From: Syncephalis fuscata
Lineage: Eukaryota; Zoopagomycota; Zoopagomycetes; Zoopagales; Piptocephalidaceae
Reading direction: 5' to 3'
Length of the DNA: 64,000 nucleotides
NCBI GenBank assembly: GCA_025786725.1
Contig: JAHLTZ010000029.1
Location: forward strand, 1-64,000
In this document: positions 8,772-52,432 of the stretch, in pieces
How the letters are laid out: each line of letters starts with the position of its first letter
How positions within the stretch are numbered: position 1 is the first letter of the stretch
The notes under the pieces: generated by a model
Told to the model about the DNA's origin: nothing
The model's database searches: none
The model's input: the letters and a program-made list of their open reading frames with translations, nothing else
Translations under genes and position numbers: made by a program

Positions 8772-9568
8772 GCTGTCTCGTAACCAATACTATCGTTTCA
8801 TCTCATTTCCGTTTCTGCACATCTAGCACAACAAACAAACCAACCTACAATCATACTAAAGACTGTGGGCTTCCTTACTTGCCGTCTTCTATTACTTCAT
8901 CATCGGCAGCTTTGCTGCTATTTTTGCTTGAACGTCCGTTAACGTTCCCGATTGTTGTTGGTAAGTCAGACAGACGACGCAGAGTTGAGCTGAGCTGCTA
9001 GAGAAATGCCTTGATTTGCGTTTTTGTAGTTCCAGTCTATTTGGACATCAAAAGATTATAGTGCTATGAAACCAATGTTTCATTGTTTTTAAGCGACTTG
9101 CTACTTTAAACATTTGGTTTTAAAATATTTAAAACTTAAATAGCTGTAGCGGTATTAATACTGGCTACATGTTTTATTATATTAAATGGCCTTTTTTTGT
9201 TTTTAAAAGTAATAGCGTTTATCTACATCTACAGCAAACTATTTTCCTAATTGTCAAGCATCTACGGTGTTACAAACAATACCATATCCAATACTAACAA
9301 CGCTTTGTTCATTATTATATAGTGGTCATACTAGCATTTGCATCAGCATCTGCATTGATATTGCCTCGCATTTCTGGCAAGCGCATTATTATATAACACG
9401 CTCTCACACTCACTCTACTCATACGCCGCAAGTCGCCTATTTATTTATTGGCAAACGTGGTACATTTTGAACAAGGACTATACTTGTTTTCATTGACGCA
9501 ACTTTCATTTATTGTGCATTCTTTCTGTGTTGTTTGTCGAATTTTCTACACGATCAGCCACTGTGATC

Positions 9569-10052
9569 ATGGCCAGCAATCGTAGCGACGGAAATACGCC
9601 CGGGAGTCTTCCTGGTGAAAGCTCACCAATACTCAGCCATGCAAACGTGCCAGCCACCACACTGGCCGTTTCAGAGGCTGTGGCCGCCTCTATTTCTGTG
9701 ACATCTGCTGCTATGGCGGTAAGTATCAGTGCGCCTACTATGGCCAATTCGGCTGTATTACCGCCAGCACCTGGTCTACCGGCCCCGGTACCTGGTGCAT
9801 CGGGCATTGCTCCAGCCGACGATATCTGTACAATCTTTGTTGTTGGCTTTCCGGACGATATGACCGAGCGCGAATTTCAAAATATGTTTACATTCTGTCC
9901 TGGTTTTGAAGCAGCAATGCTTAAGACGCCTCCGTCACAAGCATCTGCTGATGAAGCTGCTGCTACACCAGGCAGTAGTGATATCAATGGTGTAAACGGT
10001 ACAAATATGTCATCGACTAATGCCAGTGTTGGAGCTAATTCTGCTTCTGCCA

Positions 10053-10085
<33 letters not shown>

Positions 10086-11845
10086 TTGCAGCCGGCAATA
10101 CAAAGAAACCACTTCGTATTGGATTTGCCAAGTTTCGCACTCGTTTAACTGCACTCGAGGCACGAAACGTACTTAATGGTCGTAAAGTAGATCTGCATAC
10201 AGGCGCAGTACTACGTGCAGAACTAGCGAAAAAGAATTTACAAATGAAGCGCATTACTACGCTTAGTAATGGCTTTGAAGTAGGCAGCAACACAGCTAAT
10301 AGCCCCTCCAACAGCATAGGCTTCCCCAGCCTTCCTATAGATCGTAGTGCATCATCAACGGCCAGTGTGTCACAGCGATTCCATCAAAATGCATCAGAAT
10401 CGGCAGCATTTAATGCATTCTATTCGGTACCGACTACACCAGGATCAATAGGCAATGAAATGATGCGCAAAGACTACAGCAATAGCTTCGACTTCTTTGG
10501 TGATGCATTCATGTCACCTACGGGTGATGAAAACCGTCGTTTTGAACTGCCTAATCTAACGGCCGTCGGTACACCAACAGCTCGTAGCATGAGCTTCAGC
10601 CATCCACCTGGTCGTATGGCTAATGGCCAGGACAATTTTGCGCCATCGAATGCATTTAACGGATCATCGACAAATGGTACTGCCAATTCGACAGGCAACG
10701 TCGATAGCTATCCAATGCTTTCGCGCTCAAACTCGACCAGTGCAACGACGCGTACCTTCTTTGGCCGTGAAATTAGCGGTGGCGCATTGACAAATGGCGG
10801 CTCAATCGAACGAGGACCTAGTAGCGCTACATTGAAAGGGCCTGGTCAGCCTCCAAGTACACCAGGTGCTGCCCCATCTAATGGTACAGGCGCTGATGAC
10901 CAAATGGCTCCTTTGAGTGCCCGTATCAGCCAGTTAAGCATTAATACACAATTAAACTCGCTTTACAATGGAGCTGCACCGGCAGTAGGACCTCTGTCTG
11001 CCCCTGCTATTACAGCACCACGTAATCCCATTCCAGCGGATCAAAATCCACCCTGTAACACGCTTTACGTGGGTAATTTGCCAGTCAATGCACAAGAGGA
11101 CGAGCTACGCCGACTATTTTCACGTATGCGTGGCTACAAGCGCCTTTGCTTCCGTCCCAAGCCCGGCACTGGTCCAATGTGCTTTGTGGAATTTGATGAC
11201 ATTCCTTGCGCTACACACGCAATGAACGAGCTATACGGCGTGCCACTAAGCAACTCGGTCAAGGGCGGTATTCGTCTTAGCTACTCAAAGAATCCACTGG
11301 GTGTACGTCAAAACTTTGGCCCACCTACACCAACTTCATCTCAAAATGGCTCACAACAGCTCCAGCAGCAACAGCAGCAGCAACAACAACAACAACAACA
11401 ACAGCAGCAGCAATTGCGTCAAACTCATCTTTCTTCATTATCACCATCCAACGGTCATGCGAATATGACCTTGACTCAACAGCAACAACTAGCACAATTA
11501 AAGGCGGCGATTGCCATGAAGAACCGACTTGAAGGTGGCAACAACGTGCCTGGCGTGCCTATGTCCGGTGGCCCAGGCCGTCTTTCGCTTTCGGGTCTTT
11601 TACCAAACATGGGTCTAGGCAACACTCCTATGGTACAGTCTATGTCCGCCGCGCCTTCTCTTCCAACTGGCAATACCAACAATACGGTCAATGGCGGCAT
11701 TGCCTCTTCAACCGCCAATGCATCCAATGCCACCAACGGCAATGTCGGCCCAGCAACGTCAGCAGCAAACGGCAATCCAGGCAGTGCAGCCTCCAGCCCA
11801 ATGCAGGAGCCACCTTCGCTTCGCTGGCTAATGGAGGCACTATAG
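9569..11845 (+). CDS. Whi3-like RNA-binding protein with two RRMs and polyQ
   Basis: This single-exon gene encodes about 758 residues from the ATG at 9569, the first ATG in the frame, in good context (ATCATGGCC). RRM-like segment 1 begins [20 protein letters not shown] and is split by an Ala-rich insert before [20 protein letters not shown]. The C-terminal RRM begins [20 protein letters not shown] and contains [18 protein letters not shown]. This arrangement resembles the Whi3/Mde7/couch-potato class, which binds mRNA and controls cell-cycle or developmental transcripts. Between and after the RRMs lie long Ser/Asn/Thr-rich disordered stretches. A glutamine tract near 11360-11412 is encoded by mixed CAG/CAA codons. 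In yeast Whi3 a polyQ segment drives condensate formation; a similar role here is inference. Confidence 0.8.
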
Positions 11846-20930: not shown

Positions 20931-21383
20931 AATCTTTAACACTGGAACGATAATTGAGCCGCCAGTCATATACACTTTAGCTATATACTCGACAAAAAAC
21001 AAGACCATTCAAACTGCCCTCTAATCCATCATACACCAAGCACCGTCCAATGTCTCAGTTTATTCAACTTTTAATCAATGGAATTGGTATATTACCAACA
21101 AGTCTGGATTTAATTGAATTTATTCAGCTATGCAAACTTTAGGAATAAACACACGGTCCCATCTTAGCTATACGTAATCAGATTATTTTATTTATATCCA
21201 TATCTTATCTGCATTTAATGCTAAACAAACAGCAATCAAATAAATATTATTATTGAATTTATACATTTATATTGTATTGCAAGTATAAAATCCAGTTTGC
21301 CTGCAACAATATTTTTATTCAAATAGCAATACTGTTAAAAACAATTATATTTAAATAAAAATATTTCAATACATAAAAATAAT

Positions 21384-22789
21384 TTATTCAGATGCTCCAT
21401 CGCTATTATCATCGTTATCGGATTCATCAGATTCATAATTGAATCGTCATCGTCATCTTCAGATTCACTGCCAATACAAAAGTCCTCATCATCTTCGTCG
21501 TCATCGTCGTCGTCACCATTAACATTATCCACAAGCATTTGACTAGTAGCCGATAAAGTATCGTTATTTGTCTTTGCTTTTGCTCCTGCAGTTGACGATG
21601 CATCCTTATTCGTTGCTTGACTGCTATTACTATTACTATTAGGCGATTGATATAATTCGGGTGCCTCTAATTTGGCCCATCGCACATAGGCTACAATCGG
21701 TTCGAAATCTCCAGCATCAATCATAGCAAATTCCACCATTCGATCCTTTTCTTTTTTGTTATTGCTAGACTCTACACTATTAGTCGAAGGTATCGGCTGC
21801 TCTGGTTGTTTAAGTGTAATACATAAAGAAAAGGTACGCGACGTAATAGTTGCCACACTAACTTGAGCAATATCGGTTAGTGGTAAATAGAGAACTGGTT
21901 TACGGAATCCAAAAAACAATCCATGATCTAGAAAGAATAAATAACCATCACGAGTCTTCAAATGACAATTAACATAGCTGCGTGAAGGCAAAGCGTTGCT
22001 CTTGTTTGTAGAAATAGGATTAAAGCCTGAAGATGGCCCTTTAACTGAGTGGCCTGTCCATTGTTCCAATTGCTTAATAATAAAAGAACAATTTTTTGAT
22101 GTTGATTCTGTTGTATTGGCCGCTGGCTCTATACTTAGCGTTTCAGCATCACCAAATCCAAAGGCTACAATTTCAACATCTCCTTTTAGCGTAGCACTGC
22201 TAGCATTGGTATTAATATTACTATTGGTAGTGGATAACGGTAGAATAAATACAATGGTCCAATGAGGTCCAGAGGAAGTGGGACGACCTGGTGTAGGTAG
22301 ACAGAAAACATCGCGGATACAACTATATGAAAAGCTTGTCTCTACCGTTTGGTTGGATCGTCGCAAACGTACACCGTTTTGTGTCAGTTCTAAATCTAAT
22401 TTCTTACGAGGCACGGTAAAAGAAAGTGTTTTTACTGTCAGTACAGCCGCTGATTGGTCTTCTTTATTATTATCGATTTGCATAGGAGTAGCAATAGCTA
22501 CGCTCGGTACCGTGCTGCTGGTGGTGGTGGTGGCAGCACTTGCCTGTGAAGGAGGTGGCGAAGCAGGTCGACGCTTTTTATTAGCAGGTAGTTCATTCGC
22601 GGCTACCGTTTCGTCGATTCTGGCTCGCGTAGCATTGGCAGACTTGAGCTCGCATTCAAGTAATTCAATGCGGCAGGCAAAATGCGTAATAATACGATCT
22701 ATCGTCTGAGAAGCGTGCGCACCTGTGGCCGCCAGCACGCCAGCCAACGTACGTGTAGTTGGATCTGTAATGAGTGATAGCTTACTCAT
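21384..22789 (-). CDS. RTT106: Histone chaperone Rtt106-like
   Basis: The product is a histone H3-H4 chaperone of the Rtt106/Spt16-middle double-PH class, acting in replication-coupled nucleosome assembly and silencing. The single-exon gene starts at 22789 (MSKLSLITDPTTRTLAGVL). An N-terminal helical region (TIDRIITHFACRIELLECEL) is followed by a basic KKRR linker. PH1 includes VKTLSFTVPRKKLDLELTQ and GPHWTIVFILPL. PH2 includes YVNCHLKTRDGYLFFLDHG and VLYLPLTDIAQVSVATITSR, the Rttp106-like signature. An Asp/Glu-rich C-terminal tail follows. The annotated frame drifts into a non-acidic end (stop at 21335). One base earlier in phase, the sequence reads NYESDESDNDDNSDGASE and stops at 21384, a far better acidic tail. 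A one-base break at 21436-21446 is therefore likely. Pob3 and Spt16 are excluded by length and domain order. Confidence 0.8.
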
Positions 22790-23231
22790 ACTGCTCGTAT
22801 CAGCCGTTGAGCTAGTATTACTGCAGTTACGAGTACTAATATTACTATTACGAATAAGTTAAAGTTTACAGGGGAAATGGCGCGTTGTAATCCACGAAAC
22901 GTAAAAGTAATCAACAATAAGCACAGTATATCAATATTAATAAATATTGTTCATTTTTAATCATTTAAATTTTTCATACATTTCAAACGAGCAAATGTCA
23001 TCACAACTATTTGTACTAAATTAACTTTATACGATAATTGTCACATCATCACCGCTACCATCATTAACTCTAGCTCTATTAGTAGTTGCAATAGAATAGA
23101 GACGTTGGTAGTGGCAAACACAACAAGTGGCAATAATAGGTAACTTGTCTCAAAGAAATCTACCGCACACGTACAAACATGCGCACACAGAGACACGCTT
23201 TGACTTAAAAACGAAACAACAACACAACTGT
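22790..23231. other. Intergenic between two minus-strand genes
   Basis: This is 442 bp of AT-rich DNA holding the RTT106 promoter region and the 3' flank of the kinase gene. No motif stood out. Confidence 0.4.
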
Positions 23232-25138
23232 TTAAGAAAGGAAATCGGCCAATCGTTCGACTACAATGCCCATCGATGGACGCTTCGTCGCATCTTGATG
23301 CCACATCTCTTCAATAAGATGCAATAGCGGAGCAGGATACTTGAGCAACTTCACCATCGATGGTCGATGCCCATTGTCACGTACTACAAATTAAATAGTT
23401 TAGTATCAGAACAAACAGTTATTGCACAACTAAATATATAGCTTACCTTGCACATAAAGCTGATGTTCAGTCAAATCATGATAAGGGAAAGGTTCCGCGG
23501 CCCATTGTAGAATCTCCCAAAAGATTAGACCACAGGCATATACCTATAGTAGTAAATTAAATGATTGATTAATTGATGAATAGATTATAATAACGATTAA
23601 TAGCTTACATCCACCTATATTATTATTATTGTAACATTATATTAAATAATTAAAAAATGAATAAGTTAATACAATAGTCATAACTAAATGCCATTATAGT
23701 ATACCTTTTCGGTGTAGCTTGGATTGGGTGTCCAGAATTCAGGTGCTACATTGCATAAGTCTTTACGCTTAAATAACATCATTCGATGCTTGCTTACCTT
23801 GCCTATTAATGCTTATTAGCTAACTATATTTAAGAGTTGATAAAGATAACTTACCAGTTAGGTGTACCACACTGTGTATGCATTACAGTATTGTTACGAG
23901 GACGAATACGTGCAAGACCAAAGTCATTAATCTTGGCGCGGCTATCTGCACTGATCTATTGACAGTTTGTGTATTAATATAAAACTGGCTATAATAAGAA
24001 GGTACTTGCTAGAATATTCATGGATTTCAAATCACGGTGAATAATGCTTGGACGTCTTGTATGCAAGTACGATACGCCGAAAGCAATATCATGCATATAC
24101 ATAAGCTAATTAAAAATATTACTATTATGATTACTGTAGAAAAGTCATTCTATTTACCTGTTGAGAAAATGTAGGTCTTTTAGCCTTACGCATATAGTCG
24201 TATAAATCACCGTTGTCACATAACTCAGTGACTATGCATAGATGTTTAGAGCTAGTGCAAACACCAATAAATCGCACAATGTTATCGTGGCGCAATTGTC
24301 TGTTGTTTGAAAGTAATAGTTGATTATTAAATCTGTAAATTGTAGTCAATAACTTACTTTAAAACACTTATTTCGTGTTTGATTTCCAAGAAATCTTCTT
24401 TACTAAAGTCGCCTACACGAATTTCACCAATTGCCACGGGATTCTAATAACAATAATAATAATAATCAAATCAATTAATCATCCATTATTATTAATATAT
24501 TTATGTCATTATATATTACTTACACCGCTATAAGTACCGGCAAAACAATCTTTAAAGCCACCAGCACCCAATTTACGACCATAGGTAAGTTGATCGTAGG
24601 CAATCTCGCCAATTTCAGCTCGATCAGCATCATCAATGAGCATACGGCTTAATTGCACAGAATTGACGGGTGCCTTTTTGACGGGCTCCTTTGGCTCGGC
24701 AGCCATGAGTTTGGGCGTTGCCGGTACAGGTACGGGTCGCATGCCAAGTTTCTATATAAACCATCGATGATATGCCATTAGTATTCCGACAGATAATGTC
24801 AATGATAAGGGCGGAGACCCAATTTATCGTACCCAATCCATGAGTGCTTGAATAAGTGCTTCTTTGGTACCTTCTGTTGCTAAGCCTTAATAGAAATAAA
24901 TTAATACACACTGCCTATTCATTTGACATCTAGTCAATTACCGCGTTCTTGACACAAAGCAATTAAATCTGCTTTGAATAGCTTGTTAAGCGAAAACTAA
25001 TAGCAACAACATGACAATAGTTAGCATGGCACACTTTTAGTTGAACGAGAACTGCTTGTTCTATCGTCGTTTGACGCCCACCCAATCCTGATTCTCCAAC
25101 ATCTCATCCATGTGTCGTGCAATAGTTTGAAACGTCAT
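23232..25138 (-). CDS. SAP-domain TKL-type protein kinase with WNK-like lysine placement
   Basis: The gene runs from MTFQTIARHMDEMLENQDW (exon 25082-25138) to ERLADFLS at 23232, about 372 residues over some 11 exons. Residues ~20-53 form a SAP domain (LFKADLIALCQERG then LATEGTKEALIQALMDW), usually a DNA-binding module. After a Pro/Lys linker comes a TKL-like kinase: glycine loop GAGGFKDCFAGTY (~115-127), strand beta3 NPVAIGEIRV, IIHRDLKSMNIL, NDFGLARI, CGTPNWQAPEFWTP, VDVYACGLIFWE and DATKRPSM. The usual VAIK lysine is Gly, while Lys sits in the glycine loop exactly where WNK kinases keep theirs. The HRD Asp, its Asn and the DFG Asp are intact, so activity is plausible. Two microexons (5 and 6 nt) are needed to obtain the canonical WQAPE and VDVYACG segments. 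Substrate and pathway are unknown. Confidence 0.8.
23609..23614 (-). other. 6-nt microexon of the kinase gene
   Basis: On the minus strand, ATATAG|GTGGAT|GTAAGC places six bases between an acceptor and a donor. They encode Val-Asp in phase 0, joining SYTEK to VYACGLIFWE and giving the canonical TKL string EKVDVYACG. Confidence 0.7.
23798..23802 (-). other. 5-nt microexon of the kinase gene
   Basis: On the minus strand, TTAATAG|GCAAG|GTAAGC places five bases between an acceptor and a donor. With two bases from the upstream exon (TG) and two from the downstream exon (CA), they encode Trp-Gln-Ala. This restores CGTPNWQAPEFWTP across the activation segment; no other splice I tried keeps this frame. 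Confidence 0.7.
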
Positions 25139-48900: not shown

Positions 48901-51900
48901 AAGCATGATCACTAAATATAAATTGTTAGATATCTATTATAGATGTTTATAGTATAATGTAATAGCTACCTTAAATCTGTGGTGTTGGGTACACGTATTT
49001 TAACTATTTTGGCCGATTGTAAAAGTCGTTGTACTTCAAGTATACGTTGATCTGCATTAAATCTTGATTGAGTAATTTCATTGTCATTAACATTGGTGCC
49101 ATCATAAATATCATCTATAGCTGTATTGCCGTTACCAGTGCTGTTGGTATTATTGGCACCATTTGGATGTGTATTATAGTCTCCGTACTTATTCGTCGCT
49201 TAATTCTCTAATACAATTGACATATCGCTATAATTAGTCTTAATATGTAGTGAATATAATAACCTACTTGTTGTTCATGGTAATCCATCCATTGTTGTGG
49301 TGTCCATGTACGAGTAATCAAATCTTCTCTTCCTAACAAATATATTATATTATATTATATTATATTAATTTATATATAGCTATATCCTATATCTATCATC
49401 TCTTACCAATTAGTTTATAGGCAGATAGTGGCCAGTTATAATTGGGATGCCATTGACTATAATGATTGCTCTACGTAATAGTAAAGATATTGACATGGGC
49501 AGTGTCTCTAATTGTTGATATGTCCATCCATGTTTCACCATACAACTGATAACTGAATGTGGATCTGCCTTTTTCAATTCTGTATGTAATTCCATTAATT
49601 GCTGTGTTCGTTGACCACAATGATCATAATGAACTTGATATAATGGTGTAAATTTAAGCATCGTTGATAACATCGATGGATGAGGGAATTGTAATTGTAA
49701 TTTGCTATGTTCAAGTTGTCGTTGTGACCAGGTCCAGAATATACATGGTGGTATTTCCATTGATTTAACAGGAAATGGGACAGATTTATCTAATTATTAT
49801 TATATTAACATCAATACTAATTGCTTCTAAGTTATTACCATTAAGTGCTAATTGTCTTGTGGGTATTACTTCACCATCCCGCCAATAATGATCGATATAA
49901 GAGGTCCAACGATTTAACAAGGCTATTTGCACTAATAATTGACCTAGTCGATGTCTACCTTCAACTAATAGCATGTCTAATTTGAGATCTTCATAGATAA
50001 GATGGAGGGCATAGAATAGACTGGCTCTATACTTTTCTGGTAGTGTATTACTGCCCATCTCTTTTTGTAGTAGAAGTGCCTGTTGATACATCAATGTTAT
50101 TCGTGTGTCAATAGTGGATAATGGTATATTGAGTCGTTTAATAAGTGGATCTGTTTGATGTCGTCGATGTATTTGACTGCCCCTTAGCCATTGCCATGGG
50201 TCAGATTCTTTTATATCATTATTTCTGTCAATAGTAGAAGTATCTAATGAGTACCAGGATAGAATAACTACACAAAATTTGTGCCACTCTTGTTGATCTG
50301 ATAATTGAGTTGCTAATGAAGTGGATTGATAAGCATGGGCCATATATCTTGTATAGGCCATGGGATATAGTGTATCTGGTAGAGCATACGTAATGGCATC
50401 CCAACAATGACGTACTATAGGGGATCGAGGTGTGAAATCAAGTAGTACACGTATTGTTTTATGACGACTTGTTACAATATTAACTCGATTATAGACTGGT
50501 AATTGAAAGCGCACAATGGGCACCTTAGACATATGATTAGTATTTGGTGTCGATGGTTTAGACTGAGATTGACGGGGTTGTTTACTAATAGGTTCATGAT
50601 TTGTAGTATCTATATCGAGTGTATCACTAGATGATTTCTGTATAATGTCTGAATCGAGTGTACATATTAATGGTTGACCATTGCCATACCACAGTGCTAG
50701 AGTATAATCCGGTTTAACCACAAGTATATCACGTTGATGTCGACGTGTAGCGCATATTGCAGTGGCTGATAGAGCAGATGTATCAAATAGTTTAGATAAT
50801 TGTACACACTCTCCATTAACAGTGACCGTATAAGTGTATAGTTTTTGAATGGATGTATGTAGAATACAAATGACTTCATCTCCATTTAAATGATGACCGG
50901 TAAATACTTGAGATTGAACATTGATTATATGATCTAATAATTTTATAGATTAACATAGGACAGTATATACTATATATATATATATTATATTACCTTTTGG
51001 TTGTTTAAGTGTATTTATAAATGTGGAATCTATGGGCTCTTGCCATAGACATTCAAGCAATGTATCAGACGCCATTTCTTGGAAATGTCTTATGGTTGTT
51101 GCAATATCCAATTCAGTGCATAGACACGTTGTGGAGCAACTGTATTTAATTCGCGTCGAGCACTGATTAATGATATGGTTCGTTTTAATTCTGACTGATT
51201 AAAGTTGTCATCAAAGTTGCACGTATATCGCCATAATTGATGTTGACCCGTTAAACGATGGCGTGTCATACACCATGGCCGTTCTATATGATCGGATATC
51301 CAACAAATATCATGTTCTAGTGACATCCATTGATGATATAGTTCATTAGAGTTAATAGATTCACTTAATGGTGGCTGTTGCTGTTGCTGTATAGTAGATC
51401 GAACAGATACTGGTTTAAAGTGAGTCAATGGATCTAATAGCGTCCATAATACGGCACTTCTAGTCGATTCAGATGCCTGTTCACCTTCATCAGGTCGTCG
51501 TTGAATAAGTAGACCTGTATCAAGAGCCCAGGCATAAAGTACAGGTACAGGCATATTAACTGTATAATCATGTCCATTGTCAAGATAGAACTTTGCCATA
51601 TCATGTAATAGCACACATAAAGCCCGTATCTTTCTTTCTTAATAGTGTTGATATCCGTGGGATCATTAAACCAGACCCATAAAGCATGTGATACTGGGTA
51701 TCGTTCACGATAAAATGAAAACGATCTTACTAATTGACCCGCTTTTGACCAAATAACTTCACTGCCTTGTACGTAAAGTTCTTCATCAAATCCTTCATCT
51801 TGTAGCCATTTTGATGAACTGGTATCCCGTTGAAGGATATTCGATATAGGTGACTGATAGATATGAGTGGGCTGTTCTCCAACTACATATCCCGGTGAAA

Positions 51901-52132
51901 GCTGAACAGAACCACATACTGTACTACACTGATTGACTGACGAGCCTATAGAAGGACCTGGTGCCGAATAGATATCATTAGCAATAAGTGGTGTTATTGT
52001 TGCGCGACTCTGTTGTGTACTTTTAGGTCGAGGATGACTAAAGGTAGACGGTGAAGGTGGACGGACTGGTGGATTATCCTTTAAATACCGTGAACCAAAA
52101 GGAATGAATTCGTTTAAAAAACGAATTTCCAT
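45982..52132 (-). CDS. APC1: Anaphase-promoting complex subunit 1 (APC1/Cut4)
   Basis: APC1 is the largest scaffold subunit of the APC/C ubiquitin ligase that drives anaphase and mitotic exit. The start at 52132 gives MEIRFLNEFIPFGSRYL. The N-terminal beta-propeller-like half is followed by helical repeats: IYEDLKLDMLLVEGRHRLGQ and YIDHYWRDGE. Then come the PC repeats: GLLIGLAASHCGTMNDQVG, PSGALLGMGLLYMETVHRR, ALGFITLGQG, AIVALGLLYLQTNN and GAGDLTALK-like. C-terminal landmarks are HMALGFLFLGGGRVTLGRT, then AIALLLCATYPRWPSHP and LQLLRHLWVMAVEPRCLVV. The deduced frame is broken at 51618-51640, 46549-46568 and 46472-46490 (each like one missing base) and at 47157-47166 (like one extra base). Family similarity continues across each point. 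Introns are fewer and short. It ends LLSAYQAVQ. Confidence 0.88.
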
Positions 52133-52432
52133 CGTGTTTAACGAAGTGAATACGCAATATAAAGTAGAAAAAAGACAAGATCAATAGTGTCAATAAAGAA
52201 GTGCAATAAGTAATACGCGTGTGTAAATATGAATTAATTATAGACATAGTGACGCCATGATTTATTAATCAAAAAGTCTATTTATTGGCCCCATTGACGG
52301 CAATGTCAGTGTCTTCACTCCGATAACTCGATTATCATAGCTATAGTAACTATTGCCCTTCACATTGATTTTGTTCATTTTATTTCGTATCTATTCTATA
52401 TATCGTTTATAGTTAAAGTAAAAGAGGTTAAC
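52133..52432. promoter_or_regulatory. Divergent APC1/ECT1 promoter region
   Basis: 300 bp separate the two start codons. No recognised element stands out. Confidence 0.4.

Follow-up and report, generated by a model that had tools for sequence, protein, structure and literature searches.

Analysis of a 64,000-nucleotide stretch of Syncephalis fuscata DNA (contig JAHLTZ010000029.1, positions 1 to 64,000; the window) revealed a gene of 13 exons at 25138-23232 of the minus strand, coding for a 372-residue protein with an N-terminal SAP domain and a protein kinase domain. Judged by the comparisons below, this protein is likely to be a catalytically active Ser/Thr kinase of the TKL group, in which the ATP-binding Lys would have been moved from strand beta3 to the glycine loop in the ancestor of its family. 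The Pfam search, carried out with a 370-residue version of the protein, placed the kinase domain at residues 111-365 and bore out the proposed SAP domain (residues 22-55) with 27.8 bits, above the curated cut-off of 23.9.

Probable position of the ATP-binding lysine

The original prediction described a glycine loop GAGGFKDCFAG and a beta3 strand VAIGEI and likened the pair to the lysine exchange of WNK kinases. Both motifs were confirmed on the minus strand: GAGGFK is encoded at 24568-24551, the loop Lys (Lys122) having the codon AAA at 24553-24551, and VAIGEI at 24437-24420, where Gly137 (codon GGT, 24428-24426) takes the place of the usual Lys. Alignment with WNK1, whose sequence was identical to that of a PDB chain, placed the loop Lys in register with that of WNK1, and the exchange proved to be family-wide. 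The HRDLKSMN and DFG elements are canonical, as had been claimed, and so is the alphaC Glu; of the residues that mark canonical active kinases the VAIK Lys is missing, with HRD Asp, DFG Asp and alphaC Glu present. No splice form restoring VAIK was seen, the Gly137 codon lying inside exon 5 at 15 nucleotides from its 5' end.

The first alignment comprised 121 sequences, the window protein and the best 120 of 1017 matches obtained at E <= 0.001 among 4008 candidates. The loop position carried Lys in 119 of the 121 and a gap in two, that is, Lys in all 119 sequences with a letter there. At the beta3 position Gly was found in 113, Ala in two, Gln in one (P0103, misaligned) and a gap in five, and none of the 116 sequences with letters had Lys. 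The second alignment contained 111 sequences, family members together with ordinary kinases. The loop Lys without a beta3 Lys occurred in 26 of them (beta3 Gly 18, Ala 4, Ser 2, Cys 1, gap 1), while 77 ordinary kinases had the beta3 Lys and another residue in the loop (Gly 50, Ser 17, Cys 5, Ala 4, Tyr 1); one sequence had a loop gap with a beta3 Lys and seven had gaps at both positions. No sequence of the 111 carried both lysines, and none lettered at both positions carried neither. Twelve of the 26 were the window protein and matches of the first search, so that 14 are new relatives. All 132 lettered database relatives listed had the loop Lys and none had a beta3 Lys, 118 of them (from the first search) having been chosen by overall similarity and the other 14 recognised partly through the loop Lys itself.

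Among 44 hand-picked diverse members 29 columns were invariant, including the loop Lys (Lys119 in P0001 numbering), the alphaC Glu, the Asp, Lys and Asn of the HRD motif region and DFG, while the beta3 Gly134 varies. An invariant loop Lys next to a variable beta3 residue is the pattern expected if the loop Lys is functional and the old place merely free. The 27 family rows of the tree set gave the same picture, with the loop Lys in 27/27 and Gly (20), Ala (4), Ser (2) or Cys (1) at beta3. Some basidiomycete-type members, P0132 (Puccinia striiformis), P0130 and P0131, have other small beta3 residues in the form of VAIC or VAIA; Cys is also the beta3 residue of 13 of the 15 WNK rows in the first tree set.

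Distribution of the kinase family

The top matches of the first search were full-length, the first being from Basidiobolus meristosporus (72% identity over 100%), followed by Dispira, Mortierella, Ambispora and Coemansia and, lower among the best 120 of 1017, by Glomeromycotina, Mucorales, Calcarisporiella and Thamnocephalis. The same motif pair, whose search in other early-diverging fungi had been suggested, is present in Basidiobolus, Dispira, Mortierella, Coemansia, Glomeromycotina and Mucorales. For Thamnocephalis, a relative within Zoopagales, identity was 80% over 75% of the query for the kinase and 84% over 75% for WNK. The second search, with a distant metagenome member as query, added among the best 120 of 714 matches the EukProt entry named Partr, which we read as Paraphelidium, together with Amoeboaphelidium and the Basidiomycota Atractiella, Puccinia striiformis and Favolaschia. 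Paraphelidium and Amoeboaphelidium both belong to Aphelidiomycota according to the NCBI taxonomy, and the family extends across aphelids, zygomycete lineages and a few Basidiomycota. Bit scores in this search dropped from 180 (family fragment P0134) to 148 (P0135, the first ordinary kinase), and two family members that are shorter or incomplete, P0168 and P0186, scored among the ordinary kinases further down. Within S. fuscata the window kinase has no second copy at high identity, its matches elsewhere in the genome reaching only 24-43%. In P0100 (Furculomyces) the kinase model is fused to RNase P p30 (PF01876, E 1.6e-44), perhaps a gene-prediction fusion.

Relationship to TKL and WNK kinases

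The proposed TKL-like character was supported by a tree, by diagnostic residues and by similarity. Overall sequence and fold resemble those of the TKL kinases CTR1, RAF and plant HT1/STY; the best matches in sequence and in fold included CTR1 and RAF, tyrosine kinases being nearly equal in the fold match. At 18 diagnostic columns, where the WNK (>=80%) and TKL (>=60%) residues differ and from which the trait columns were excluded, 312 of 480 family cells were TKL-like and 31 of 480 WNK-like. A 99/96 split placed the family on the TKL side, where its exact position was weakly supported. All 28 TKL-grouped rows of the tree set, a label that we assigned from similarity with CTR1 and BRAF as named anchors, have the beta3 Lys and none has the loop Lys, the opposite of the family.

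The shared position of the Lys would also be explained if the family were a diverged branch of WNK that gained DFG and other TKL-like residues secondarily. The same genome encodes a separate WNK, with its kinase domain in one open frame at C46:525202-526017 (L021 1189-2415, minus strand), which has GKGAYK, VAWN and DLG, shows 52% to human WNK1 and is a different gene from the window kinase. Bootstrap trees were constructed from two later sets with both trait columns removed, the WNK sample being narrow (animals, the two environmental sequences P0305 and P0338, and two zygomycetes). The family was kept on one side of a branch in 1000/1000 bootstraps of both sets and was joined with WNK in 0/1000 of each; WNK grouped with PAK1, NEK7, PKA and a CDK-like kinase in 994/1000 trees of one set and with PAK1 and NEK7 in 910/1000 of the other. 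DFG in 27/27 family rows against DLG in 11/11 WNKs, and the diagnostic cells given above, likewise argue against WNK descent. Several results weigh on the other side. Approximately unbiased (AU) tests did not reject trees constrained to join the family with WNK, the log-likelihood being 14.5 lower (p 0.114) in one set and 11.2 lower (p 0.189) in the other; mean identity of the family to WNK (31.3%) is little below that to TKL (33.5%; others 25.9%); and the best non-self match of the window kinase in its own genome is the WNK (95.3 bits, 32%), in a search that puts kinases split by introns at a disadvantage. The earliest tree, in which one long sequence was the sole outgroup, was unstable, failed to hold the family together on one side and was rejected. 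A point against the preferred reading as a whole is that the SAP domain was matched at E <= 0.1 in just 29 of the 44 diverse members. Descent from WNK is in our judgement quite improbable. The independent origin of the exchange, as originally suggested, is thus favoured on the sequence comparisons: the bootstraps stand behind it, but with the joined topology unrejected by the AU tests it is unproven.

Loss of the VAIK Lys is a usual mark of a pseudokinase, and the TKL group is the richest in pseudokinases, mostly those of plants and fungi, according to the review PMC10211241. The family could accordingly have lost phosphotransfer together with the beta3 Lys and kept the loop Lys for non-catalytic nucleotide binding or for structure. 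We consider this unlikely: across the 44 diverse members no change is seen in the loop Lys, the alphaC Glu, DFG or the Asp and Asn of HRD, and the other catalytic residues show no decay. Among rows with letters in the first alignment HRD Asp was retained in 114/116, DFG Asp in 118/119 and alphaC Glu in 118/119, so that exceptions are few (2/116, 1/119 and 1/119). An error of assembly, splicing or gene prediction might also have produced the unusual motif pair, as 12 introns, two microexons and a GC-AG intron make mis-splicing easy, our initial gene model lacked one microexon, and the public Thamnocephalis model P0038 seems broken in the beta3-alphaC stretch. Homologues refute such an artefact, identical residues being found in relatives of many genera and both motifs lying within exons, and its probability is negligible.

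Proposed mechanism and comparison with known systems

An active TKL kinase with a relocated Lys is the reading that we prefer. In the family ancestor the ATP-binding Lys would have left beta3 (VAIK) for the final residue of the glycine loop, where beta2 begins (GxGxFK, residue 122); from there its side chain would reach the alpha and beta phosphates of ATP, like Lys233 of WNK1. The alphaC Glu, HRD Asp and Asn and DFG Asp would keep their usual roles, and the vacated beta3 place would be free for a small residue, Gly, Ala, Ser or Cys. The AlphaFold2 model of the Basidiobolus member (mean predicted local distance difference test score 85.6, the activation loop being partly poor) has an ordinary kinase fold with Lys119 in beta2 and Gly134 in beta3. 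The SAP domain would probably bring the kinase to nucleic acid, DNA or RNA.

WNK1 and other WNKs share with the family the loop Lys in register (GxGxFK or GxGxYK), a beta3 residue other than Lys (Cys or Asn), the alphaC Glu and the conserved Asp of DxG; they differ in having DLG, HRDLKC[DE]N and a non-TKL grouping in most bootstraps, where the family has DFG, mostly HRDLKSxN and TKL residues. In published work the loop/beta2 Lys is needed for WNK activity (PMC10211241; PMC1821047) and the migrated Lys is essential in WNK1 and in POMK (PMC10211241; PMC5142810). By analogy with WNK1 and POMK, the loop Lys of the family is taken to be used in catalysis and to hold the ATP phosphates. POMK (SGK196) is without canonical HRD and DFG and has a glycan substrate (PMC10211241), whereas HRD and DFG of the family are canonical. 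In the microbial CAK-chloro kinases, which are eukaryotic-like kinases, the positive charge of beta3 position 72 has moved to position 55 of the loop, a shift whose parallel to WNK is noted in PMC1821047; they are unlike the family in using Arg instead of Lys, in lying outside the eukaryotic protein kinases and in having Phe for the alphaC Glu. Migration of the positive charge is thus already known from WNK, POMK and, as Arg, CAK-chloro.

The review PMC5346417 links the Leu of DLG to chloride inhibition of WNKs, describes a chloride pocket that Leu369 and Leu371 of DLGL make up, and reports constitutive phosphorylation upon mutation of the first DLGL Leu of WNK4. All 27 family rows have the Phe of DFG at the place of WNK1 Leu369, and the DLG motif is absent. 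Phe at that first Leu of WNK4 is reported to have the effect of constitutive phosphorylation. Phe283 and Leu299 presumably line the pocket as well. At the mapped pocket places other than that of Leu369 the family has residues that are also the commonest ones in the TKL rows, which give no evidence for a chloride site in the family. With Phe instead of Leu in DFG, WNK-type chloride control is doubted, and the family is expected to be without it. At the place of WNK1 Ser382, which we take to be an activation-loop phosphosite, 17 of the 27 family rows have Thr and 10 have Ser, which would be compatible with activation by phosphorylation. A more speculative and rather doubtful extension is that the family re-invented the WNK catalytic centre in such a way that the vacated small beta3 pocket (Gly, Ala, Ser or Cys) senses some ion or ligand that is not chloride and couples a kinase bound to nucleic acid through SAP to cell physiology.

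Gene structure and other features of the window

All exons are on the minus strand and are joined by GT-AG signals, apart from a single GC-AG intron at 24009-23956. Exon 1 (25082..25138) carries the start codon and is followed by the donor GTGGGC, the protein matching Basidiobolus P0001 across the junction. The SAP domain is divided between exon 2 (24942..24996, first half) and exon 3 (24833..24885, second half). Exon 4 (24524..24751) codes for the linker, beta1 and the glycine loop GAGGFKDCF, and is separated by an intron at 24523-24444, starting with GTAAGT and ending with TTAG, from exon 5 (24358..24443), which codes for beta3 and for alphaC with the conserved Glu (IKHEI). Exon 6 (24158..24299) covers beta4-beta5 and the hinge region, exon 7 (24010..24105) the catalytic loop HRDLKSMN, just before the GC-AG intron, and exon 8 (23855..23955) DFG and the activation loop. 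Two microexons are required for a complete frame. Exon 9 (23798..23802) of 5 nucleotides encodes with its flanking exons the WQA of WQAPE, a motif that homologues have; exon 11 (23609..23614) of 6 nucleotides, GTGGAT, encodes Val-Asp of the conserved DVY, homologues having TEKVDVYACG. The public Thamnocephalis model P0038 has TEKVYACG and seems to be without the 6-nucleotide microexon. Exon 10 (23705..23745) covers the APE motif region, exon 12 (23447..23543) the alphaF region and exon 13 (23232..23383) the end of the C-lobe with the stop codon.

Downstream of the kinase gene, on the same strand, lies a reading frame for an Rtt106-like histone chaperone (21335-22858, minus strand; PF08512, E 1.2e-19). 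Pieces of anaphase-promoting complex subunit 1 were identified in two reading frames at 49786-52180, minus strand (PF20518, PF12859), and a long open frame at 9497-11845, plus strand, contains one RRM (PF00076).

Implications

No account of a SAP-TKL family with a loop Lys was found in the open literature, subscription papers being mostly outside the search. The relocation principle itself is known; a TKL family that is conserved and combines a WNK-type catalytic centre with DFG appears to be new. Surveys of pseudokinases that use the VAIK Lys alone could misclassify such a conserved fungal kinase. The family, only distantly related to WNKs, would provide a natural test of why enzymes relocate the lysine that grips ATP: being separate and widely conserved, and showing this shift together with DFG, it could tell apart two possibilities, a migration linked to anion sensing and an alternative active site that can be reached generally.
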